Both the position numbers and the translations under genes were made by a program. Under the pieces are notes generated by a model. That model saw only the letters and a program-made list of their open reading frames with translations, had not been told where the DNA came from and did not search any database. A stretch of DNA of 41,393 nucleotides from Nitrososphaeraceae archaeon (GTDB lineage: Archaea; Thermoproteota; Nitrososphaeria; Nitrososphaerales; Nitrososphaeraceae): NCBI GenBank assembly GCA_021325295.1, contig JAJPHM010000055.1:1-41393 (forward strand), read 5' to 3'. Positions 19,405-32,014 of the stretch are shown piece after piece (positions within the stretch are counted from its first letter, which is position 1; each line of letters opens with the position of its first letter).

Positions 19405-19950
19405 TCAGATTGTAAGGATATTTTTTGCTTCGTTTACTTTCTCCAAAAGTTTTTTGAGAAAGATGTTTGCAAATTGCTCAAACGAATACACTCCATACTT
19501 TTCTTTGTACTCTGCCTTTCTTTTCTCGTATTCTGAGGCAAGCCATTCAAAGTCGGCTTCTTTTAATTTAACGACATAATTCTGTGAGTTGGCCTTTGAT
19601 TCAAACATGTTCAGCATAAAAATGCCTGCAAAATGTGTGAAACTGCTTGTCCTGTATTTCATGGCATATTCGTCCTTTAGCTTGGCATAGTTTTCTTCCA
19701 GCCATGCCTTTACATCTGACCTGATGGTAAGGGAAGTATACCTGCCTGAAAAGTCTGCCTTGATATTGTTCATGCCGACGGTGTAGTATCCGCGCTTTAC
19801 TTCATTCATCATAATTATAAGGGCACTTGGGAGAAACATTCCTGGGTAAAATTCGTCTGTTGACTTTTCCAGCCTGCTCAAAATGGCGGGCTTGAGGCCT
19901 ATTGTGGCATAACCCTTACTGGGCACGGTTTGTGTAGATATGTTATTCAT
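19405..19950 (-). CDS. protein with three internal ribbon-helix-like repeats
   Basis: 181 residues built from three similar units (about 13-55, 70-118, 123-172). Each starts with a short beta strand (YATIGLKPAI, YTSLTIRSDV, YVVKLKEAD), continues with a long charged helix (LEENYAKLKDEY, LASEYEKRKAEY) and ends with a hydrophobic helix (FTHFAGIFMLNMF, FEQFANIFLKKLL). The strand-helix-helix order recalls ribbon-helix-helix DNA-binding modules in tandem. I do not recognise a named family. ATG 19950 lies in an AT-rich region. Confidence 0.6.
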   Translation of the reverse strand: MNNISTQTVPSKGYATIGLKPAILSRLEKSTDEFYPGMFLPSALIIMMNEVKRGYYTVGMNNIKADFSGRYTSLTIRSDVKAWLEENYAKLKDEYAMKYRTSSFTHFAGIFMLNMFESKANSQNYVVKLKEADFEWLASEYEKRKAEYKEKYGVYSFEQFANIFLKKLLEKVNEAKNILTI

Positions 19951-20037: not shown

Positions 20038-20502
20038 CTATCTCACCGCAACAACGGGGCAATGTGCGTGGCTGATGACATTGCTTGCCACACTGCCCAA
20101 AAGGAATTTTTCCATACCTGTCATTCCCAAGGTGCCGATAATTATTACATCGATATCATTATCTTTGGCATATCCTATTATGGAATCTGCTATCGAAGAT
20201 CCGGATATAACTTCAGTCTGTACCTTCAGATTTTCTCTTTCACAGGCTGCCTTTATTTCATCTAAAAGTTCTTTAGCCTTTCTTTGCACTGCCTCCTCGT
20301 AAGGCTCAACCCTGCCTCCCCTGTAGTATCCCAGCATATCGCCTACAGCTCCAAGGCCAAGGGAATGCTTGTCAATTACATGAATAGCTATTATTTCAGA
20401 ATCCATAGCTTTGGCCAGCATGGAGGCAAACGCAACGATTTTGTCTTTGTAGCCTGATCTGTCAACAGCGATCAGTATATTTCTGATTTGGTTTGATGTC
20501 AT
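20038..20502 (-). CDS. universal stress protein, UspA family
   Basis: 154 residues with the UspA alpha/beta fold: IRNILIAVDRSGYKDKIVAFA at the N-terminus, a central VISGSSIADSIIGYAKDNDIDVIIIG, and the ATP-binding loop GTLGMTGMEKFLLGSVASNVISHAHCPVVAV (G-x2-G-x9-G-S/T-type). It begins 20 nt after the stop of the upstream sodium:solute symporter, so the two are probably one transcript. Usp proteins paired with transporters are thought to modulate them. Confidence 0.9.
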   Translation of the reverse strand: MTSNQIRNILIAVDRSGYKDKIVAFASMLAKAMDSEIIAIHVIDKHSLGLGAVGDMLGYYRGGRVEPYEEAVQRKAKELLDEIKAACERENLKVQTEVISGSSIADSIIGYAKDNDIDVIIIGTLGMTGMEKFLLGSVASNVISHAHCPVVAVR

Positions 20503-20522: not shown

Positions 20523-22082
20523 TCACCGCTTTATCAGCCTGACATCAATTGGGTTAACCCAATCCTTAACATCAGTGCCTGCAACTACGTCTTCGTCTCT
20601 CGGTACAAGGTAAATGACATCGTGCCTTGGAGGAGTTTTCTTTTGAGTCGCCAAGCTGACAAGAATAAATACTGCAAGCGAGATCGGCGGCGGGATCATT
20701 GTATCCAGACCGGCCCACGATGCCCAGGGACTAGTCGATGGAGCGGTGGATATTAGGAAGTACAGAAAAAGCCTTATCGCCGATCCTACAGTAATAGAAG
20801 CGACTGCCCCAGCAGCAGTTGATTTCTTCCAATATGTACCAAATATCACAGGAACCAAACAACCTGCAAGTACAATATCAAAGGCAAGAACAAGATATCC
20901 CCCAGGCCTTGGAATGATGTACCCCACTGCAAAAGCCGTAAAGAACATTGGTATCACAAGCAGTCGGGTTGCAAGCAAAAGCTGTCTATCAGTGAATCTC
21001 TTCTTGTTCAAGCGTGGCAGTATATTTCGCTGCAACATATTTCTTGACAATACGCTTGCAATAGCAAGGGTTCCTCCGTTTGCTGTTGACATTCCACAGC
21101 TTATTGTGCTTACCAGAACCAAGATTCCCAGTATAGCCGGCATGTGATTGATAGCCAAGATGGGATAGAGTGTGTAGGGGTCGTTGAGTTTTGGCTCAAG
21201 TGTGAATCCAATTATTCCCATCATGCTGACTGGAATCAGTATCAGCAATGTCAGCCCTGCTCCGAAATAGCTGCTCTTCTCGGCAGTCCGGCCACCATCG
21301 GCTGCAAAAACTCTTTCCATAAAGTCAAGCGCGACTATATCTCCCAAGCCGAGACTGAGTATTGCGGCCCAGTTTATCAAAGCGCCATTACCTACATCGT
21401 ACAGACCAGACATGTCCATAAAATTAGCCGGGGCATTTGCAACAATCGTTTCAAGCCCGCCTGGGATTGGCGACCATGGACTGATAAAATACAGAAAGCC
21501 TCCCCAGAAGCCCACTACTGCAAGATAGATATGGAAAATATCGGTATATGCACAGGAAAACAATCCTCCAAAGTAAGTATACAGTAATATTATTCCGGTT
21601 GAAATCAGCATTGCAAATACGAGTGGTATTCCCAATACAGTGCTCAGGATGTATCCGCTTGCCCCCAGGTTTCCGGCAACAAGGACAATGAAGCTTATAG
21701 ACATTATGGTGCCGGTCATTACTTCTGTAGTATTTCCATAGCGTCTGAAGTAAAAATCTGCCAGGGTAATCATGTTCATGCGATTGAATTTCTTTCCAAA
21801 GAAAGCGCCCGTAAGCACCAGACATATTGCAAGCCCCAGTGGAAGAACCGCGCCGCCCCAAAAGCCACCTGTAAAGACACCAGCAGCGCCCAGAGACGTG
21901 TTTCCGTCAACTGCTTCAGCAACCAGCATCGTCCCAACAAAGAATAGTGGCAAACTTTTTCCTGCAACGATATATCGCTTGCTGCTCTTCTTGACCAGTT
22001 TCACTGCTAATACGCCAATAGCGGCTGTTGCAGCTACAAAAGCTAGGATGGCAACCGGATAGTAGAGCGGAATATCCGTCAT
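20523..22082 (-). CDS. sodium:solute symporter (SSS) family transporter, candidate urea or guanidino-compound importer
   Basis: 519 residues and about 13 membrane helices. LADFYFRRYGN, the GASGYILSTVLGIPLVFAM region, and the SCGMSTANGGTLAIASVLSRN loop are typical of SSS carriers of the urea/polyamine (DUR3-like) and related branches. Substrate cannot be read directly. Its promoter carries a palindrome also found before the ureohydrolase gene and, in a degenerate form, behind ureC, which favours urea or a urea-yielding compound. A UspA gene follows. TATA-to-ATG spacing implies a leaderless mRNA. Confidence 0.85.
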   Translation of the reverse strand: MTDIPLYYPVAILAFVAATAAIGVLAVKLVKKSSKRYIVAGKSLPLFFVGTMLVAEAVDGNTSLGAAGVFTGGFWGGAVLPLGLAICLVLTGAFFGKKFNRMNMITLADFYFRRYGNTTEVMTGTIMSISFIVLVAGNLGASGYILSTVLGIPLVFAMLISTGIILLYTYFGGLFSCAYTDIFHIYLAVVGFWGGFLYFISPWSPIPGGLETIVANAPANFMDMSGLYDVGNGALINWAAILSLGLGDIVALDFMERVFAADGGRTAEKSSYFGAGLTLLILIPVSMMGIIGFTLEPKLNDPYTLYPILAINHMPAILGILVLVSTISCGMSTANGGTLAIASVLSRNMLQRNILPRLNKKRFTDRQLLLATRLLVIPMFFTAFAVGYIIPRPGGYLVLAFDIVLAGCLVPVIFGTYWKKSTAAGAVASITVGSAIRLFLYFLISTAPSTSPWASWAGLDTMIPPPISLAVFILVSLATQKKTPPRHDVIYLVPRDEDVVAGTDVKDWVNPIDVRLIKR

Positions 22083-22383: not shown

Positions 22384-22896
22384 TTACCATTTCATTCTTT
22401 TCAACTTTGCGTGCAGGAGCGGATCCAGCTTTCTCGACGTATCAAAGCATTTCTGGGATTCATTTATTCTGCCAATAAGCGAGAGCGCTCTGCCCTTGTT
22501 ATACCATGCCTTAGCATAGCCGGCATCCTTTTCTATTGCTTTGTCAAAGCACTCTATGGCCTGCTCTGTCCGTTTCAGCTTGAGCAACGCAAGTCCCTTG
22601 TTATTCCATGTTTTAGGATTACCAGGATCTATTGTGATGGCATTTGAAAAAGCTGCAAGCGCATCTTCTGTTGCGCCTTTCTTTTCTAACATCAATGCTT
22701 TATCGCCCCATGCGTATTCGTTTTTTGGATAAATTTGAAGAGCCTTCTCAAATGCGTCTAATGCTTCGTCTATTCTATTTCCGTTGGCCAGATCTTCACC
22801 ATATTTGACCCATTCATCCGACGCTTCCCTTCGAGAAACTTTCTTGATTACTGGCTTCTCGGGGGCCTTTTTGCCAAATAGCCATTCGAGTACCAT
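22384..22896 (-). CDS. tetratricopeptide repeat (TPR) protein
   Basis: 170 residues. After a short basic N-terminus come at least three consecutive TPR units: EWVKYGEDLANGNRIDEALDAFEKALQIYP, YAWGDKALMLEKKGATEDALAAFSNAITIDP, and TWNNKGLALLKLKRTEQAIECFDKAIEKD, with a fourth ending in KLDP. Each shows the W/L/G/Y/A/F/A/P pattern. TPRs bind partner proteins; no catalytic domain is present. It is a cytoplasmic scaffold or adaptor of unknown target. Upstream lies a 44-residue membrane protein gene on the same strand. Confidence 0.88.
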   Translation of the reverse strand: MVLEWLFGKKAPEKPVIKKVSRREASDEWVKYGEDLANGNRIDEALDAFEKALQIYPKNEYAWGDKALMLEKKGATEDALAAFSNAITIDPGNPKTWNNKGLALLKLKRTEQAIECFDKAIEKDAGYAKAWYNKGRALSLIGRINESQKCFDTSRKLDPLLHAKLKRMKW

Positions 22897-23196: not shown

Positions 23197-23481
23197 TCAA
23201 CAAGACCAATTCTTGCTGACATGCTTGCAGATGCCGGATTCTTTCAGTATATAAAAACAGAAATTGATGTCGTCTATGGTGATATCAGGTACAGACTTGC
23301 CAGCTTCGTGCTTTAGGTCCTGAATGAAATCATAAATTTCATCTGCTGTGATATCGCTTTGAGGATAACCAAGGTTTTCATTCACTGTATTGTACATCGC
23401 GATATAGTAGCTGAGAAATGAGTTCTTTATAATGGCCTGTTCGTAATCCCGACCGGTTTTCTGTCGTACTACAGACGCCAT
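23197..23481 (-). CDS. unknown helical protein, 94 residues
   Basis: Starts at ATG 23481, about 28-30 nt after a CCTTATAAGG TATA-like segment (about 23504-23513), so probably leaderless or nearly so. The product is soluble and mostly helical, with ADEIYDFIQDLKHEAGK followed by a beta-helix end, DINFCFYILKESGICKHV. I do not recognise the family. It is divergent from the ParB-like gene. Confidence 0.6.
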   Translation of the reverse strand: MASVVRQKTGRDYEQAIIKNSFLSYYIAMYNTVNENLGYPQSDITADEIYDFIQDLKHEAGKSVPDITIDDINFCFYILKESGICKHVSKNWSC

Positions 23482-23660: not shown

Positions 23661-24410
23661 ATGAAGCTGAAGAACATTCCAATAAGCAAGATAGATATAG
23701 CAGAGGAGAATGTCCGAAAAGAGCACGCCTTTGGCGAAGATAAAAGCGACAAGCTGATTGTAGACCATTTATCAAAATTTGACCTTCTTCAGCCGGTGGT
23801 TGTACGGTTCGACAACGAAAGTCAGAGGTACAAGCTACTGATTGGCCGCAGACGCTTCTTTGCCCTTACATCAAGAGGAGAAAAGGAAATTCCGGCAGTA
23901 GTGACCGAGCTTGAAGGAGCCGAAGCAGAGGCAGCTTCTCTGTTTGAAAACCTCATACGCAAGGACCTTGCACCTCTTGAAAAAGCAAAGATGGTCAAGA
24001 GGCTGGTAGAAACCACAGAGTCAGGAATCACCGGAGTATCAAGAAAATACGGCTTGCCTAAAAGCACCATAAGCGAATGGCTCAGTATTCTAGAGCTTCC
24101 AGAAAAGCTTGCAGAAAAGCTTGATTCGGGTGAAATTACGCTATATGAGGCTATTCAGATCACAAGGAAGCCAAAAGCGGTGCAGGAGAGGCTTGTCACC
24201 GCTATAGCTTCTGGCAAGCTGCAGGAGGAGATGGTGCGAGAAGGTGTAAAGCGTGGCGCACCAAGGGGCCTGCTTACCATACGCCTCGTATTTGACCCGA
24301 GGAAAAAATTTGACAAAAGGCTATGGGATCAGCTGAATGAAAAGGCCGCAGAGAAGGGCCTGGAAGTAACTGATTATGTGCGAAATGTGCTTTCAGAGCA
24401 TGTTCACTAA
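23661..24410 (+). CDS. ParB/Spo0J-like DNA-binding protein
   Basis: 249 residues. Residues 3-100 form the ParB N-terminal domain: IPISKID at the start, IGRRRFFAL (61-69) in place of the usual GERR box, and FENLIRKDLAPLEKA (95-109). Residues about 113-145 form the KorB-type helix-turn-helix, GITGVSRKYGLPKSTISEWLSIL. The C-terminus (about 205-249), LTIRLVFDPRKKFDKRLWDQL and LEVTDYVRNVL, looks like a ribbon-helix-helix dimer unit. Lacking a ParA neighbour, it is more likely a regulator than a partition protein. Its promoter resembles that of ureA, and it sits between two palindrome-bearing genes. Confidence 0.85.
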   Translation: MKLKNIPISKIDIAEENVRKEHAFGEDKSDKLIVDHLSKFDLLQPVVVRFDNESQRYKLLIGRRRFFALTSRGEKEIPAVVTELEGAEAEAASLFENLIRKDLAPLEKAKMVKRLVETTESGITGVSRKYGLPKSTISEWLSILELPEKLAEKLDSGEITLYEAIQITRKPKAVQERLVTAIASGKLQEEMVREGVKRGAPRGLLTIRLVFDPRKKFDKRLWDQLNEKAAEKGLEVTDYVRNVLSEHVH

Positions 24411-24563: not shown

Positions 24564-25721
24564 ATGGGAATGGAATTTTACGGTGAATCATACAAAGGCA
24601 ATGACGAACCCATCTTCGTAGGAATACCCACGTTTCTGAAATTGCCATGGGTAAGAAGCCAGGAGGAGCTGCAAAAAGTAAAGCCAGATGTTGCAATAGT
24701 AGGGGAGCCATTTGATTTTGGAACAACTATTCGGCCCGGAGCAAGATACGGCCCTAGGGCAATAAGAGCAGCTTCGACAGTTCCGTCGCCACCATATGAG
24801 CATTTTAACATCGAGACAGGAGTCGATCCTTTCGGAGTTTTCAAGACAGTCGACTACGGAGACGTAATTGTTTCTCCGGGTGATGTAGTAGAATCGCTTA
24901 AAAGAATGACAGACAAGGTAAAGCAGGTTCTCGATATCGATGCCATTCCAATAATGCTTGGAGGCGACCATTCTATAACATTTGCAAATGTGCGGGCCTT
25001 TGCCAAAAAATACAAGAACATAGGCATGATTCACATAGATACGCACGCTGACTGTGCTCCCCAAGGACTTTGCGGGTTCAAATACGATCACGGCGCTCAC
25101 ATCAGAAGGATTATGGAACTTGGGTGTCTTAAGGGCAAAAACTATACCCTGATAGGGCCAAGAGGCTACTGGCCGGGGCCTGACCTGTACAAATGGATGG
25201 CCGATCAGGATTTCCAGTGGTTTACGATGCTAGATGTTGAAGAGCTTGGAATAGACCAGATTGCAAAGGAAGCTGCAGATAGGGCAAATGATAACGTAGA
25301 TGCAGTGTTTATCAGCTGGGATATCGACACATTTGACCCTGCGTATGCGCCAGGAACAGGAGAGCCAGAGCCAAACGGCCTTACATCAAGGGAAGGGATG
25401 AGGCTGATGAGATTGCTCTCGACTTCTTTCGACCCAGACAGATTTGCATTTGACCTGGTCGAGGTTGCGCCAAACTATGACGTAAGCGACGGCAACTCGT
25501 ACAATGGAGGAATCACGTCCGGGCTGGCAAACAGGCTGATAACTGAGCTTATGGCAGGTCTGTCTTTAACAAAGAAGGGAATGCTGGAAGGTCGCCCTGT
25601 AAGGCCCAAGTTCTACCGTGGCAAGGGGCATACGTATGACTTTGGCAATGGGCCGCATGCAAGGCCGCCAAAAAGACCTGCTCTGACCTATGGACCCAAA
25701 GCAGCTAAAGCCAAAAAGTGA
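24564..25721 (+). CDS. ureohydrolase of the agmatinase/arginase family, candidate nickel-dependent guanidine hydrolase
   Basis: 385 residues, longer than typical agmatinases (about 300) and close to the nickel-dependent guanidine hydrolases. All metal ligands are present: His136 (GGDHS), Asp159, His161, Asp163 (HIDTHAD), and Asp253, Asp255 (SWDIDTFDPAYAPGTG). The family hydrolyses guanidino groups and releases urea. An extra N-terminal stretch of about 40 residues and a basic C-terminal tail are seen. The next gene overlaps by 4 nt and encodes a UreA-like protein; a nickel permease follows. Classic agmatinases use manganese, so the nickel context is suggestive. Agmatine, guanidinobutyrate or guanidine remain possible substrates. 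Confidence 0.85.
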   Translation: MGMEFYGESYKGNDEPIFVGIPTFLKLPWVRSQEELQKVKPDVAIVGEPFDFGTTIRPGARYGPRAIRAASTVPSPPYEHFNIETGVDPFGVFKTVDYGDVIVSPGDVVESLKRMTDKVKQVLDIDAIPIMLGGDHSITFANVRAFAKKYKNIGMIHIDTHADCAPQGLCGFKYDHGAHIRRIMELGCLKGKNYTLIGPRGYWPGPDLYKWMADQDFQWFTMLDVEELGIDQIAKEAADRANDNVDAVFISWDIDTFDPAYAPGTGEPEPNGLTSREGMRLMRLLSTSFDPDRFAFDLVEVAPNYDVSDGNSYNGGITSGLANRLITELMAGLSLTKKGMLEGRPVRPKFYRGKGHTYDFGNGPHARPPKRPALTYGPKAAKAKK

Positions 25722-26152
25722 CACAACGTATGAAAATACGGGCAAAAGTAAAGGGAGAGCCGGACACAATTCCCTTTATAAGGACTTTTTCGCTTCAAGA
25801 CAGGTCTGACGAGGAGATTTTTTTTGGAATGGCGGCTGCAGTGCAGGACAAGCTGGCCAGAAAGTTAAAAATTAACGTAAACGAGGCTCTAGTGGTTTAT
25901 TGCGCCCTTGTTCTGGACCAGGCTCTTAAAGGGGTAGATGCCCGGACTATTCAAGATAGTGCCCGTACCATTCTATCTGCTGGCGATGTGATGATAGGAG
26001 TGCCAGAGACTTTGCATACTGTTACATTTGAACTCGCAATCAATGGCCGTGCTGAAAGGATAGTGCTGGAAGAGCCGATTCCAATTCCGTCCAGACGTTA
26101 TTACACAGCTACGGCAGCAAGAATGCCCGGTAAGAAGAGCAAGGAGCGTTAA
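25718..26152 (+). CDS. divergent urease gamma subunit (UreA)-like protein
   Basis: 144 residues. From about residue 27 it aligns along its length with the true UreA encoded at 29279: MAA near the first helix, then LKINVNEAL (LKLNYAEAI in UreA), GDVMIGVPETLHTVTFE ([17 protein letters not shown] in UreA) and a final strand ending in EEPI (HNPI in UreA). It adds an N-terminal extension of about 25 residues and a basic C-terminal tail. The start is GTG 25718, overlapping the ureohydrolase stop by 4 nt (ATG 25730 is the alternative), which implies translational coupling. No UreB- or UreC-like gene accompanies it, so it may act as a subunit or metallochaperone for the ureohydrolase. Confidence 0.8.
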   Translation: MTQRMKIRAKVKGEPDTIPFIRTFSLQDRSDEEIFFGMAAAVQDKLARKLKINVNEALVVYCALVLDQALKGVDARTIQDSARTILSAGDVMIGVPETLHTVTFELAINGRAERIVLEEPIPIPSRRYYTATAARMPGKKSKER

Positions 26153-26212
26153 ATTAATCGAATTGATCACCAGCAAGCTTTTTGACCTGCAGAATGGAAG
26201 GAAGCAACAATC

Positions 26213-27178
26213 ATGGTAGATGTCTGGACACTTGTCTTGGTTTCAATTCCAGCTATGATTGCGCTTGGAGTGCGCCATGCTTTGGATGTCGACCACATAA
26301 CTGCAATTGACAACTTGGTAAGGTTGCATAATGCACAAAAAAAATCAAGATGGGTTGGCACAGGATTCAGCTCAGGACACATGCTCTCTGTGCTGGCTGA
26401 AATGGTTTTCATAATCTACATTATTGCAGATATTAATGGAGCCGGTGGGCTTCAGCTATGGGGTAGCGTCATTGGGGCCATTGCTCTTGGAGTAATAGGC
26501 TCGATGAATATCTTCTCCATGAAAAGATATGGAAAAACCAGCCCTGCAATATTTGCCAGCAAGGTTCTATCCAGAACAGGAATGATTGGGCCGTTTGGCT
26601 CTGCTCTGATAACTGGACTTGTTTTTGGTCTTGGGTTTGACACCGCTACCCAGATCTCGGCTTTAACTCTCTCTGCAATTGCATCGGCAACTGCAGGAGT
26701 ACAGGTTGCCCTTGTATTGGCAGGCTTTTTTGCCCTGGGCATGATCCCTGTAGACACACTGGACAGTGTCATTCTGCGCTCTGCATTTCACAGGATATTC
26801 AACAGCCAAGGGTTCCGCCACATGTCTTATGCACTCTCTGGCTCTGCACTCACAGTAGCCGGCCTAGAGTCCTATTCGACGATAACAGGTGTCAATATAC
26901 TGCCAGAATGGTTTGGCATGGCTCTTGCAATCAGTATTATTGCTGCTTCATTTGGGTATGCCTTTGCAATGCGTGACAAAGGCAGAGAAAAGGTTGTACA
27001 TGAGCATCGGCATCAGCATGGCGATGGCAATTCATATTCGCATATCCATACCCATCAGCACGCTTTTGAACAAGAGCACGATCACGAACATGAGCACAAG
27101 TATGAGCACGATATGGATGTAAAGGAGAAGGCGAATAACAGCAATAGAGACAGTGGCACCAGTAGCGAAGGCGGGTAG
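26213..27178 (+). CDS. nickel/cobalt permease, NiCoT family
   Basis: 321 residues, about eight membrane helices. The signature RHALDVDHITAIDN (residues 21-34, with His22, Asp25, Asp27 and His28) in helix II and GLGFDTATQIS (139-149) are diagnostic. A cytoplasmic or outer tail (263-299) holds about 15 histidines in HEH/HQH runs, likely a metal buffer or sensor. It imports Ni2+ for urease and possibly the ureohydrolase. It starts 61 nt downstream of the UreA-like gene and may be in the same operon. Confidence 0.92.
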   Translation: MVDVWTLVLVSIPAMIALGVRHALDVDHITAIDNLVRLHNAQKKSRWVGTGFSSGHMLSVLAEMVFIIYIIADINGAGGLQLWGSVIGAIALGVIGSMNIFSMKRYGKTSPAIFASKVLSRTGMIGPFGSALITGLVFGLGFDTATQISALTLSAIASATAGVQVALVLAGFFALGMIPVDTLDSVILRSAFHRIFNSQGFRHMSYALSGSALTVAGLESYSTITGVNILPEWFGMALAISIIAASFGYAFAMRDKGREKVVHEHRHQHGDGNSYSHIHTHQHAFEQEHDHEHEHKYEHDMDVKEKANNSNRDSGTSSEGG

Positions 27179-27253: not shown

Positions 27254-28987
27254 TCAATGATAGTGGTGGGCAGGACGCTGCATCTTGCCTAATCTGTCAA
27301 AATGGTCATGTGTCTTGTTGCCACCCTCGTGGGAGTGAGTCGTGCCATCTGCATGTGTATGCGTAGACATTGTGGGCTTGGCCATCATTACATCATCAAC
27401 ACGCATGAGCATGCAGGTTACCTCGACAGCCGTCTTGATCACCTGCTCCTTGACCATGCAGGGTTCGATGATGCCCAAGGAGAACATATTCTTGATTTCA
27501 CGGCCAAATGCATCTATTCCGTACCAGTTCTGGTTATGCCCATTTCCGTTCCCGGGGTGCCATTTTTTATCAGAGTTTCTTGCCCTGAGGGCTACCATGG
27601 CGTCAATAACATTCATCCCAGCGTTTCTTGCCAGCGTGAGCGGTATCTCCTCAAGGGCATCTGCAAATTTTTGCATGACAACCTGTTTTCTGCCCACTGC
27701 ATACAAGGATCTATCCCTGATCATAGTCGAGATAAGCGATTCTGCTGACCCACCTCCGCCCACTACAAAAGGCCTAACAATAAAGTCTTTCAATACACCA
27801 ATTGCATCCAGTACGGACCTGTGGCATTCGTCAAGAGCAGTTTTTGTCCCTGCCCTCAGAAGGAGCGTCACAGACTTTGGATCCTGACATCCTTCTATGA
27901 AGACCATCCTGTCATCACCGACATGCTTTTCAATCACTCTGCCTGCAAAACCCAGTGATTCTCCTGACATGCTTTCCAAGTCAGTAATCTTGCCGCCGGT
28001 GGCTTTCTGGGCCCATTGCAAATCATTCTCTTTTACCCTGCGGATTGAAATAATGCCCTCTCTGGCAAGCAAGGTCAACGCCAGCGGACTGATGCCCTTC
28101 CTTGATATGACTACATTTGCGCCACATTTGATTATTTTCTCAACCTTTTTCAGAATCTCAATCTGCTCTTGTTTTCTGATGGCATTGACCTGACTTGGCG
28201 CTGAAATAGATATCTCGGCATCAGTTTTTGTTCTATTGTTGTCCAACTCGTCGTCTAGTAGAAGAATCTTTGCCTTTTCTATCGCCTTGGGCATCAAAGA
28301 GCTGTCTATTGTTTTATCAATAACCATACCGTATACAAGTTCAGTATCAGAAATATTTCCTGTCTTTTCTTCGATTTTTATGTCGTCTGGCTCGATTTTG
28401 CCTTTGCCAAAGTCTGCAACTGCACACACTGCGTCAATTACAAGCCTTGCAATCTTGGCATCTTCATCCTGATGCTGTCTGTCGATGGAGCCTAGAATCT
28501 TTGATTTCAGGCAGGTGGACGCAAGCCTCTCCAGAGCCTGCCTATCAGAATTTGCCAGAGGATGGGCAATAGACTGCAGGATTTCAAGTGAAGTTTCCAT
28601 AGCTTCTAGGTATCCGTCGATTATAGTTGCCGGAGCAATGCCCATCTGTAATAGCTCTTCTGCCTTTTCGACCAAAGCTCCGGCAAAAATCACAACTGAG
28701 GTAGTTCCGTCGCTTACTTCATTATCAACAGAATTTGATGCATCAATTATAGCTTTGGCAGCAGGGTGCTCAACGTCGATTTTGCGCAAAAGTGTAGCGC
28801 CGCTCTTTGTCACCGTGACTTCGCCAAGAATATCAACAAACATCTTGTCCATGCCTCTTGGGCCAAGCGAGTTTTTGACAAGCTCGGCAATCAGTTTTGC
28901 TGCAATAAGGTTATACCTTAGTGCATTGCTTCCACTAGTACGTCTGACTCCTTCACCGAACAAGCTTGTCATCTTGTTTGCTGTCAA
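27254..28987 (-). CDS. divergent group II chaperonin (thermosome-like) with His-rich C-terminus
   Basis: 577 residues with the full three-domain chaperonin fold: LGPRGMDKMFVDILGEVTVTKSGATLL, SDGTTSVV (Asp93 kept) and VVGGGGSAESL. The usual D of the nucleotide site (NDGATI in thermosomes, KDG in GroEL) is Ser62 here, whereas the later catalytic Asp in SVLDAIGVL is kept. Instead of the normal Gly/Met-rich tail, the last 38 residues hold nine histidines (THTH, THSH, THDH, HHYH). Its location between a nickel permease and urease suggests a role in nickel handling or urease folding; this is inference. It is probably an extra, specialised subunit rather than the housekeeping one. Confidence 0.88.
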   Translation of the reverse strand: MTANKMTSLFGEGVRRTSGSNALRYNLIAAKLIAELVKNSLGPRGMDKMFVDILGEVTVTKSGATLLRKIDVEHPAAKAIIDASNSVDNEVSDGTTSVVIFAGALVEKAEELLQMGIAPATIIDGYLEAMETSLEILQSIAHPLANSDRQALERLASTCLKSKILGSIDRQHQDEDAKIARLVIDAVCAVADFGKGKIEPDDIKIEEKTGNISDTELVYGMVIDKTIDSSLMPKAIEKAKILLLDDELDNNRTKTDAEISISAPSQVNAIRKQEQIEILKKVEKIIKCGANVVISRKGISPLALTLLAREGIISIRRVKENDLQWAQKATGGKITDLESMSGESLGFAGRVIEKHVGDDRMVFIEGCQDPKSVTLLLRAGTKTALDECHRSVLDAIGVLKDFIVRPFVVGGGGSAESLISTMIRDRSLYAVGRKQVVMQKFADALEEIPLTLARNAGMNVIDAMVALRARNSDKKWHPGNGNGHNQNWYGIDAFGREIKNMFSLGIIEPCMVKEQVIKTAVEVTCMLMRVDDVMMAKPTMSTHTHADGTTHSHEGGNKTHDHFDRLGKMQRPAHHYH

Positions 28988-29278: not shown

Positions 29279-29581
29279 ATGATGTTATCTCCGCGTGAAA
29301 TTGACAAACTCTACATTTTCATGGCAGCCGAAATTGCCCGGAGGAGAAAACAGAGAGGTTTGAAATTAAATTATGCCGAGGCTATTGCGCTGATAGCAGA
29401 TCACATTGTGGAAGGGGCAAGAGATGGAAAGTCGGTTGCTGAGCTTATGAGCTCGGGCCGCAAAGTCCTTGGCAGAGATGACGTTATTGCAGGCGTGCCG
29501 GAGCTTATAAAATCTGTTCAGGTGGAAGCAACCTTTAATGACGGAACCAAACTTGTCACCGTTCATAATCCGATAGTATAG
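29279..29581 (+). CDS. ureA: urease gamma subunit
   Basis: 100 residues, the normal UreA length. [48 protein letters not shown] and [20 protein letters not shown] are the family's conserved blocks. It forms the (UreABC)3 urease with the next two genes and lies outside the active site. The start could be ATG 29279 or the next codon, ATG 29282. It is first in a tight ureABC operon, with 21 nt to ureB. Confidence 0.96.
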
Positions 29582-29602
29582 TGCGGTGTGGCGTGACCAT
29601 TA

Positions 29603-29983
29603 ATGATCCCAGGCGAATATCTTCTCCGCAAAGACCCTGTCGTTGCTAATGTGGGTAGAAAGACTGCAAGGGTAAAGGTAAGCAATACCGGAGACAGGCC
29701 CGTTCAGGTTGGCTCGCATACACATTTTTTTGAAGTCAACAAGGCTCTACGGTTTGACAGAAAGCGAACCTACGGGTACCATCTTAATATCCCATCAGGC
29801 ACCTCATTGAGGTTTGAGCCCGGAGACACAAGAGAGGTAGAGCTGACAGAATACGGCGGGAAAAAAGTGGTGTATGGGTTCAATGGCCTTGTAAACGGGA
29901 AATTGTCTGAAAAGAAAGCCCTTGCCTTCAAAAAGGCAAGGCAGAACGGCTTTAGAATAGAGTCCGACGGTGGTGGCAGCTAG
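29603..29983 (+). CDS. ureB: urease beta subunit
   Basis: 126 residues. MIPGEYLL at the start, [22 protein letters not shown], and [26 protein letters not shown] are diagnostic of UreB. A C-terminal extension rich in Lys (about residues 105-126) goes slightly beyond the usual beta subunit. It is a structural subunit of the urease trimer. The gene overlaps nothing and ends 2 nt before ureC, so it is clearly co-transcribed. Confidence 0.96.
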
Positions 29984-29985
29984 CA

Positions 29986-31701
29986 ATGCTCAAGATCCCA
30001 AGAAAGCAATACGCCGAACTCTATGGGCCTACTGTTGGCGACAGAGTCAGGCTGGCTGATACTGACCTCATAATCGAGATCGAAAAGGATCTGTTGACCT
30101 ATGGCGACGAGCTGGTCTTTGGCGGCGGGAAGAGTATCAGAGACGGGATGGGTCAGGCAAGTGGGATAACGAGCAAAGATGCCCTTGACTTGGTTATCAC
30201 AAACGCAATAGTCATGGATTCTATGCTGGGCATAATCAAGGCTGACATTGGCATTAAAAACGGTCTGATAGCCGGAATTGGCAAGGCCGGCAACCCTGAC
30301 ATAATGGATGGAGTCAACAACAAGATGATCGTTTCTTCTGCCACCGAAGTCATTGCTGGCGAGCACACTATATGCACGGCTGGAGCAATCGATACTCACA
30401 TACACTTTATCTCGCCTCAACAGGCAATAGAAGCAATCTGCAGCGGAACTACCACCATGATAGGCGGCGGCACCGGGCCTGCAGATGGCACGAACGCTAC
30501 TACCTGCACTCCCGGGCCTTGGAATATCCATCGCATGCTTGAGGCGCTGGATGAATTCCCGCTCAACTTTGGTCTGCTTGGCAAAGGAAATGATTCGCAG
30601 GAGCCTGCGCTGGTTGAGCAGATTGCAGCCGGGGCATGCGGCCTGAAGTTGCATGAGGATTGGGGCTCTACACCCGCGGCAATTGATGCTGCGCTCCGGG
30701 TGGCTGATAAAACCGACACCCAGGTCGCTATCCATTCAGATACCCTGAACGAATGCGGATTTGTCGACGATACAATAGCTGCTATTGCCGGCAGGACAAT
30801 CCACACCTATCACACCGAGGGAGCCGGAGGAGGCCATGCTCCAGATATTATGAAGATTGCCGGCGAGAAGAATGTCCTGCCCTCATCGACAAATCCTACC
30901 AGACCATTTACCACCAATACTCTTTCTGAGCACCTTGACATGATGATGGTCTGCCACCACCTGAACCCTTCGATACCAGAAGATGTCTCTTTTGCAGAAT
31001 CCCGCATCAGAAGGGAGACCATAGCTGCAGAGGATGTTTTGCATGACATTGGGGCATTGAGCATGTATTCTTCTGACAGCCAGGCAATGGGCCGTGTTGG
31101 CGAGGTTACTACCAGGCTCTGGCAAACAGCTGACAAAATGAAAAAGGCTGCTGGGAGGCTGAAAGAAGAGTCAGGCGATAATGATAACCTGCGCGTGAAG
31201 AGATACCTGTCAAAAGTTACAATCAATCCAGCAATAACCCATGGCATTTCAGATTATGTGGGCTCGCTGGAGCCGGGCAAGCTTGCCGATATTGTCATCT
31301 GGAGCCCGGAATTTTTCGGAACAAAGCCCAAGATGGTCATAAAGGGCGGGTTTATCGCCTATTCTCTTATGGGTGACCCAAATGCATCAATTCCCACTCC
31401 AGAGCCAGTCTACTACAGGCCAATGTTTGGAGCATTTGGCCGGGCAAGATACGCAACATGCCTGACCTTTATGTCAAAGCTTGCCATAAGAAATGGAGTT
31501 GCAAAAAAGCTTGGCCTGCGTAAAAAAGCAGTGCCGGTCAGAAATTGCCGCAATATCAGCAAAAAAAACATGGTATACAATGACCTGACACCCAAAATAG
31601 AGATCGACCCCGAGACCTATATTGTCAAGGTGGATGGAAAAGTAGCAACCACCGAGCCAAGTGCAGAGCTGTCTCTTTCAAGGCTGTACAACCTGTTTTG
31701 A
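29986..31701 (+). CDS. ureC: urease alpha subunit (catalytic)
   Basis: 571 residues, the normal length. The dinickel site is complete: His138 and His140 (DTHIH), the carbamylated Lys221 (GLKLHEDWG), His250, His276 and Asp364 (SSDSQ). The flap residues Cys323 and His324 (MVCHH) are present too. It hydrolyses urea to ammonia and carbamate, giving ammonia for oxidation and CO2 for fixation. The accessory genes ureD/H, ureE, ureF and ureG needed for nickel insertion are not found in this window and must be elsewhere. Confidence 0.97.
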
Positions 31702-31709
31702 CGAATTGG

Positions 31710-31724
31710 GTTCGGTTGTCGAAC
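31710..31724. promoter_or_regulatory. degenerate copy of the palindromic operator behind ureC
   Basis: GTTCGGTTGTCGAAC: the right half-site is exact and the left has two changes from TTCGAC. It is centred about 19 bp before the TATA box of the 83-residue gene. Confidence 0.45.
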
Positions 31725-31728
31725 TGAA

Positions 31729-31748
31729 AATATTTATATATTTACTAA
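31729..31748 (+). promoter_or_regulatory. promoter of the 83-residue gene with TTACTAA box
   Basis: AATATTTATATATTTACTAA is almost identical to the SSS transporter promoter; the TATA centre is about 26 nt and TTACTAA 21 nt before ATG 31763. Confidence 0.6.
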
Positions 31749-31762
31749 ATATAATAATCAAT

Positions 31763-32014
31763 ATGAAACCAGTCAAAACTGAAGCCGACGTACAGAGCGC
31801 AGCAAAGAACGCTGTAGAAGCGCTTTATGGAAAAGTTGAGGGCTTTAGAATCAGAACTCTGCTTCCTTTCCCGACTGAGCATAAGGCCGAAGCATGGGAC
31901 GCTCAGGTTGTTTTTATGTCTAAGGGCATGCAATACACAGTTGACCTGCTTATCAACAGAGACGACGGGCAGGTTACAAATGCGAGGCTGATAGATCAGA
32001 TGGCTCCGCTCTAG
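31763..32014 (+). CDS. 83-residue unknown protein of the urease region
   Basis: Starts at ATG 31763, chosen because of the promoter directly upstream; an in-frame TTG at 31661 would run into ureC. The product is small, soluble and alpha/beta: a first helix (EADVQSAAKNAVEALYG), then strands (GFRIRTLLPF, WDAQVVFMS, QYTVDLLINRD). The order helix-strand-strand-strand recalls PepSY-like or GvpO-like small proteins, but that is weak. Its own promoter and operator copy tie it to the urea/nickel gene set. The function is unknown. Confidence 0.7.
   Translation: MKPVKTEADVQSAAKNAVEALYGKVEGFRIRTLLPFPTEHKAEAWDAQVVFMSKGMQYTVDLLINRDDGQVTNARLIDQMAPL

Follow-up and report, generated by a model that had tools for sequence, protein, structure and literature searches.

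We describe a gene module of ammonia-oxidizing archaea (AOA) in which a ureohydrolase (UH), a UreA-like protein (UreAL) and a NiCoT-type permease are encoded near urease, and in which a sodium:solute symporter (SSS) and a chaperonin with a His-rich C-terminal tail track UH, not urease. The UH-UreAL-NiCoT trio is one end of this larger module. Judged from its genes, the kit near urease probably lets the archaeon feed on a guanidine-type compound from its surroundings, and the reading that we favor as the probable one is that UH, as a nickel enzyme, cleaves a guanidino compound that is imported and probably cationic, with urease taking the urea. The stretch of DNA analyzed, hereafter the window, comprises 41,393 nucleotides of a Nitrososphaeraceae archaeon (GCA_021325295.1, contig JAJPHM010000055.1), in which the genes concerned and their neighbors are arranged as follows.

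20038-20502, minus strand: universal stress protein, recurring beside AOA loci and on Haloarcula pNG700
20523-22082, minus strand: SSS, 519 aa, non-DUR3
22384-22896, minus strand: TPR protein of a family that recurs in 47 of the 60 loci read
23661-24410, plus strand: ParB/Noc-like protein directly 5' of UH, recurring at many AOA loci
24564-25721, plus strand: UH, ureohydrolase, 385 aa (Pfam Arginase PF00491, 265 bits)
25718-26152, plus strand: UreAL, UreA-like protein, 144 aa (Pfam Urease_gamma PF00547, 39.4 bits, cut-off 23.9)
26213-27178, plus strand: NiCoT-type nickel/cobalt permease, 321 aa (NicO/NiCoT PF03824, 66 bits, cut-off 27.7)
27254-28987, minus strand: thermosome (group II chaperonin) paralogue with the His-rich C-terminal tail STHTHADGTTHSHEGGNKTHDHFDRLGKMQRPAHHYH (Cpn60_TCP1, 489 bits)
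29279-29581, plus strand: ureA, true urease gamma subunit
29603-29983, plus strand: ureB, urease beta subunit
29986-31701, plus strand: ureC, urease alpha (catalytic) subunit

The open reading frames of the window bear out the three-gene series with ureABC downstream (29279-31701) as it was first described. The original prediction of an agmatinase-family protein of 385 residues with six metal ligands is confirmed by the Arginase match and by the invariance of the ligands, that of a 4-nt-overlapping gene with a UreA-like product by the Urease_gamma match and a UreA-type fold, and that of a NiCoT permease next in series by a gap of 60 nt between UreAL and the permease gene. The GTG start of UreAL lies within the UH stop codon, and the chaperonin gene sits between the NiCoT gene and ureABC on the opposite strand. 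The ParB/Noc-like protein is a possible candidate regulator of the module, and the ties of the universal stress protein and the TPR protein to it are uncertain. Small proteins without a Pfam match, of families that turn up repeatedly at the UH loci of AOA, are encoded at 19405-19950 (minus), 23197-23481 (minus) and 31661-32014 (plus). No tRNA was found in the window, and its only Rfam match (5_ureB_sRNA, 30136-30432, minus), which is antisense inside ureC, is most likely conserved ureC coding sequence.

On sequence grounds, UH is a new archaeal ureohydrolase clade and not a standard agmatinase. It carries the Arginase domain and the two-metal ligand set of the ureohydrolase (arginase) superfamily, and the ligands His136, Asp159, His161, Asp163, Asp253 and Asp255 are invariant among 29 AOA and haloarchaeal orthologues. 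In the tree, the AOA and haloarchaeal UHs form a single clade (support 100/99) that is separate from the guanidinases, which form their own clade (100/100), and apart from the guanidinobutyrase/propionase proteins and the agmatinases, including SpeB of E. coli and the agmatine ureohydrolase of T. volcanium. The signature of the clade is GTGEPEP with Glu267, accompanied by two inserts, PSPPYEHFN (74-82) and SDxxSYNGGITSG (about 308-320). Glu267 replaces the guanidinase Trp in every complete orthologue examined, and most other ureohydrolases have Thr there; this invariant Glu and the two inserted loops set UH apart as a separate clade. The best sequence match of UH among solved structures is the guanidinobutyrase GbuA (3nio, 180 bits), which differs in being without the UH loops and Glu267 and in falling on a separate branch.

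As now annotated, UH would be an ordinary manganese agmatinase, serving polyamine synthesis or tuning urea levels. It has been seen beside SSS in NS-delta AOA and named agmatinase/SpeB (PMC11131427), it is an "agmatinase family protein" in haloarchaea, and the Pfam Arginase match is consistent with such a role. We nevertheless regard this role as very improbable. UH scores below the SpeB equivalog cut-offs (155 vs 174.3 for TIGR01230; 197 vs 302 for NF002564), and the phylogeny places it away from, not inside, the manganese agmatinases. Its strict linkage to urease, the symporter and the His-tailed chaperonin also argues against an ordinary agmatinase, as does the presence of at least one PF00491 gene besides UH in all 48 AOA checked, with or without UH, so that UH need not be the enzyme behind polyamine synthesis.

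The structural neighbors of UH lie elsewhere. Foldseek with the UH model ranked the guanidinases 9fek and 7esr at the top and metformin hydrolase next, a ranking qualified by the moderate quality of the model (pLDDT 69), in which the active-site loops are among the weak segments, with loops below 50 pLDDT. UH has the fold, the six ligands and the Thr of the GTT motif in common with the guanidinase GdmH (Synechocystis 7esr/7oi1; Nitrospira inopinata 9fek), which is likewise accompanied by urease in a nitrifier. The residues that define guanidinases are Thr97 and Trp305 in Synechocystis numbering (PMC11410670). Although the Thr is present in UH, the invariant Glu267 stands in place of Trp305/313, which makes a guanidinase-like specificity uncertain. 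UH differs further from GdmH in its two inserted loops and separate clade, and its module uses SSS instead of an APC or ABC importer.

A narrower form of the favored reading takes UH as a true guanidinase that converts guanidine to urea and ammonia. Besides the top Foldseek rank of the guanidinases and the retained Thr, it is consistent with the fact that every product would be usable by an ammonia oxidizer, guanidine being the only candidate substrate that yields three ammonia, and with the incomplete putrescine catabolism of AOA (PMC10753782), which argues against agmatine. The missing Trp and the separate clade weigh against it, as do the Rfam search, which found no guanidine riboswitch in the window, and two published screens that list no guanidine genes in AOA (PMC11410670, PMC12625717), the former being the 2024 Nature survey of guanidine, with no guanidine-use genes in AOA. 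We therefore hold a strict guanidinase to be possible but doubtful, and guanidine as the substrate is unsupported as stated. The likeliest substrate of UH is either guanidine or a related small compound, for example methylguanidine or agmatine.

The distribution of the module was scored in 250 genomes of the class for UH, UreC, SSS and the His-tailed chaperonin. UH orthologues are found in 59 of them, in the families f1, f2 and f5, with 78-94% identity across AOA, and a scan of further genome contigs adds UH in Nitrosocosmicus, Nitrosotalea, Nitrosarchaeum, Nitrosopumilus and Marine Group I strain D17. Within the sample, UH and UreC occur together in 58 genomes, UH alone in one and UreC alone in 34 (Fisher p=2e-31). 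As urease is present in 58 of the 59 UH genomes, urea is the likely product of UH, and the earlier proposal that UH feeds urea to the adjacent urease gains comparative support. UH and SSS occur together in 56 genomes, with three UH-only and two SSS-only genomes (56/59 vs 2/191, p=1.5e-49); the latter two (G193 and G244) hold SSS fragments in incomplete MAGs. The corresponding numbers for the His-tailed chaperonin, scored from matches extending to the tail and from two copies seen directly (L064, L080), are 51 with both, eight with UH alone and one, G193, with the chaperonin alone (51/59 vs 1/191). Among urease-positive genomes, SSS is found in 55 of 58 with UH vs two of 34 without, and the chaperonin in 50 of 58 vs one of 34.

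All of these co-occurrence figures partly reflect physical linkage; SSS nevertheless accompanies UH even on a separate contig in G141, G144, G118 and G158. Relatedness was controlled for by shuffling the labels 20,000 times within the eight genera where UH is present in some genomes and missing from others (63 genomes). Agreement with UH was 59/63 for SSS and 58/63 for the chaperonin, against an expected 33, and neither value was reached in any shuffle. DUR3, used as a control, has no positive within-genus link to UH (agreement 23/63). In urease genomes that are at least 95% complete, the UH and SSS states disagree in two of 59. The UT-type urea transporter (PF03253) was also considered as a UH-associated element and rejected, with no association (p=0.05).

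Part of the module extends to haloarchaea, in which the contig scan unexpectedly revealed UH orthologues 53-56% identical over 349 residues. UH lies near an SSS homologue (35-37% identity) in all 11 haloarchaeal loci fetched, with an AbrB/PhoU-like regulator between the two in the records read with annotation. All 11 haloarchaeal genomes with UH possess urease gamma, and in Natronorubrum bangense UH adjoins a whole urease operon, ureBCAGDEF. A His-tailed chaperonin was found in haloarchaea only in Haloarcula and Haloquadratum (L216:4187-5803; L225-L228), with a tail different from that of AOA: the Haloarcula copies terminate in HDHAHAATGGYPWAVGH and lie about 6-8 kb from UH, and Haloquadratum has a related one elsewhere. 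That the His-tailed chaperonins of AOA and haloarchaea go back to one origin is unsupported: in the tree, the H. marismortui copy falls among haloarchaeal chaperonins, on a branch that is long and unsure. This copy appears to have arisen independently, and the haloarchaeal His tail may be a convergence. The UH neighborhood on pNG700 of Haloarcula marismortui (L216) also encodes a formamidase, a universal stress protein, an APC permease and a Mov34/MPN protein.

In AOA papers SSS proteins are listed as urea transporters (PMC11131427, PMC10579303, PMC12686405). The window SSS, however, is only about 22% identical to the DUR3-type SSS adjoining ureC in other AOA, from which it was told apart by blastp, and is shorter (519 vs 660-750 aa). 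Its nearest solved structures are choline transporters, of the cation-carrying branch, a relation that hints weakly at a cationic substrate. DUR3 or UT is found in 30 of the 34 urease genomes without UH vs 29 of the 58 with UH (p=2.5e-4), and the genome of the window gave no match to either. Two readings fit the missing urea importers: urea is made inside the cell by UH, or SSS carries urea. If the latter held, SSS would be a plain urea importer, UH would recycle internal guanidino compounds, and the module would be a urea-supply island, in keeping with papers that count SSS proteins among urea transporters (PMC11131427, PMC10579303) and with half of the UH genomes having neither DUR3 nor UT. 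We consider this unlikely, because SSS is missing from 32 of the 34 urease genomes without UH, the two exceptions being the fragments in incomplete MAGs, and because of its distance from DUR3 and, as weak evidence, its closeness to choline transporters. Its near confinement to UH genomes in AOA, together with its position beside haloarchaeal UH, favors instead the substrate of UH as the cargo, as the favored reading holds.

By sequence UreAL matches UreA chains of known structure (best E 2.4e-9), and Foldseek with its AlphaFold2 model (pLDDT 89) retrieved only urease gamma-type structures at E<0.001. Like urease gamma UreA, it possesses the UreA fold and the VMxGVPE motif; it differs from UreA in an N-terminal beta hairpin extension, high divergence and the pairing of its gene with a ureohydrolase. 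It scores above the cut-off of the Pfam family and yet far below those of the UreA equivalogs (39.6 vs 123; 35.6 vs 82.3). A UreAL reading frame directly follows UH in 46 of the 58 AOA loci read, overlapping it by 4 nt in 28 loci and by 1 nt in 11; this gene order is not a chance one. Compared with the 78-94% identity of UH, 31 other copies of UreAL are only 25-45% identical to that of the window. Some of the other 12 loci are broken by contig ends or Ns; UreAL is seemingly truly missing in five (L083-L085, L110 and L117), three of them Nitrosocosmicus-like and two from Nitrosopumilaceae. None was seen beside UH in haloarchaea. A urease-derived partner, as originally predicted, thus holds at the level of fold and not as a strict requirement, given its absence in these few AOA and beside haloarchaeal UH.

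UreAL might be a spare urease gamma subunit and not a partner of UH, as its UreA fold would allow and as a copy from the f5 family (L118), which is without the N-terminal extension and is intermediate in sequence between UreA and UreAL, could suggest. Such a role is, however, quite improbable in view of the true ureA already encoded in the window, the codon-overlapping order of UH and UreAL in most loci, the large shortfall from the UreA equivalog score (39.6 vs 123) and the low identity of other copies to that of the window.

Several observations point to nickel as the metal of UH. At many other AOA UH loci, too, a NicO/NiCoT-family gene comes next; the permease of the window passes the PF03824 cut-off, scores 83.7 vs 333 for TIGR00802 and carries a long His-rich C-terminal stretch of its own. 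Nickel is likely because of this gene, the His-tailed chaperonin that tracks UH and the structural neighborhood of nickel guanidinase and metformin hydrolase, and the nickel enzyme envisaged in the original prediction is to this extent upheld. The AOA His-tailed chaperonins form one clade (100/100) with a His-rich tail instead of the usual thermosome GGM-type end. At the UH loci of both large AOA families, every complete copy keeps this tail, whereas the tails of ordinary chaperonin copies are GGM-like or short. Since the chaperonin follows UH among urease-positive genomes, its client would be UH rather than urease. The His tails could also bind other metals, or the chaperonin could serve nickel storage instead.

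Of all parts of the locus, the chaperonin may be the most novel, and in the open-access papers searched we found no description of it or of UreAL. A comparable folding machine with a metal-binding C-terminal tail for a nickel enzyme is the GroES protein HspA of Helicobacter pylori, whose His/Cys-rich tail binds nickel and serves hydrogenase (PMC3856676). HspA is a co-chaperonin, whereas in AOA the tail sits on the group II chaperonin itself. A parallel to the UH layout is also found in metformin and dimethylguanidine hydrolase (MefH, MfmAB), a nickel ureohydrolase that needs a partner and has nickel transporter and chaperone genes alongside; the metformin hydrolase needs HypA/HypB, and its operons carry hypA, hypB and the nickel transporter gene hupE (PMC11399263). 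In those systems a second ureohydrolase acts as the partner and HypA/HypB as the chaperones, whereas the UH locus has a UreA-like protein and a chaperonin.

In our proposal, the five genes besides urease make up a conserved module for import and hydrolysis that lies upstream of urease. We propose that a small guanidino compound, probably a cation, may enter the cell with sodium through SSS and that UH, whose fold and ligands are those of a dinuclear ureohydrolase, would convert it, by analogy with its superfamily, to urea and ammonia or an amine. The urease encoded alongside would split this urea into two more ammonia for energy and nitrogen. NiCoT would supply Ni2+ to UH, and the dedicated chaperonin, with its His-rich tails inside the folding chamber, would fold and metallate UH, standing in for the HypA/HypB chaperones of guanidinase and metformin hydrolase. 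UreAL may be a urease-derived accessory subunit, translationally coupled with UH, that either helps to stabilize or load UH or links it with the urease machinery. The earlier overall idea is largely upheld for UH, the fold of its partner, the likely nickel and the likely passage of urea to urease; free guanidine is the part left unsupported as stated, with Glu in place of Trp and UH outside the guanidinase clade. In its fullest form, our proposal is an unrecognized archaeal nickel-ureohydrolase system with its own symporter, in which the chaperonin tails load nickel in the chamber and UreAL couples UH to urease, letting AOA, and partly haloarchaea, live on a guanidino compound; we offer this fuller form only tentatively, as something that could well prove otherwise.

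NS-delta AOA may turn other organic nitrogen into urea (PMC10579303), and the UH module is a candidate answer to the source of urea in those UH-bearing urease AOA that are without a known urea importer. From its distribution, one of the symporters that are counted as urea transporters in AOA would seem to have a different cargo. If true, the dedication of a group II chaperonin to a single enzyme, by way of a conserved His-rich tail, would amount to a new route to a nickel enzyme. With the UH module in roughly one in four of the sampled genomes of the class, AOA seem to have an additional class of organic nitrogen open to them.
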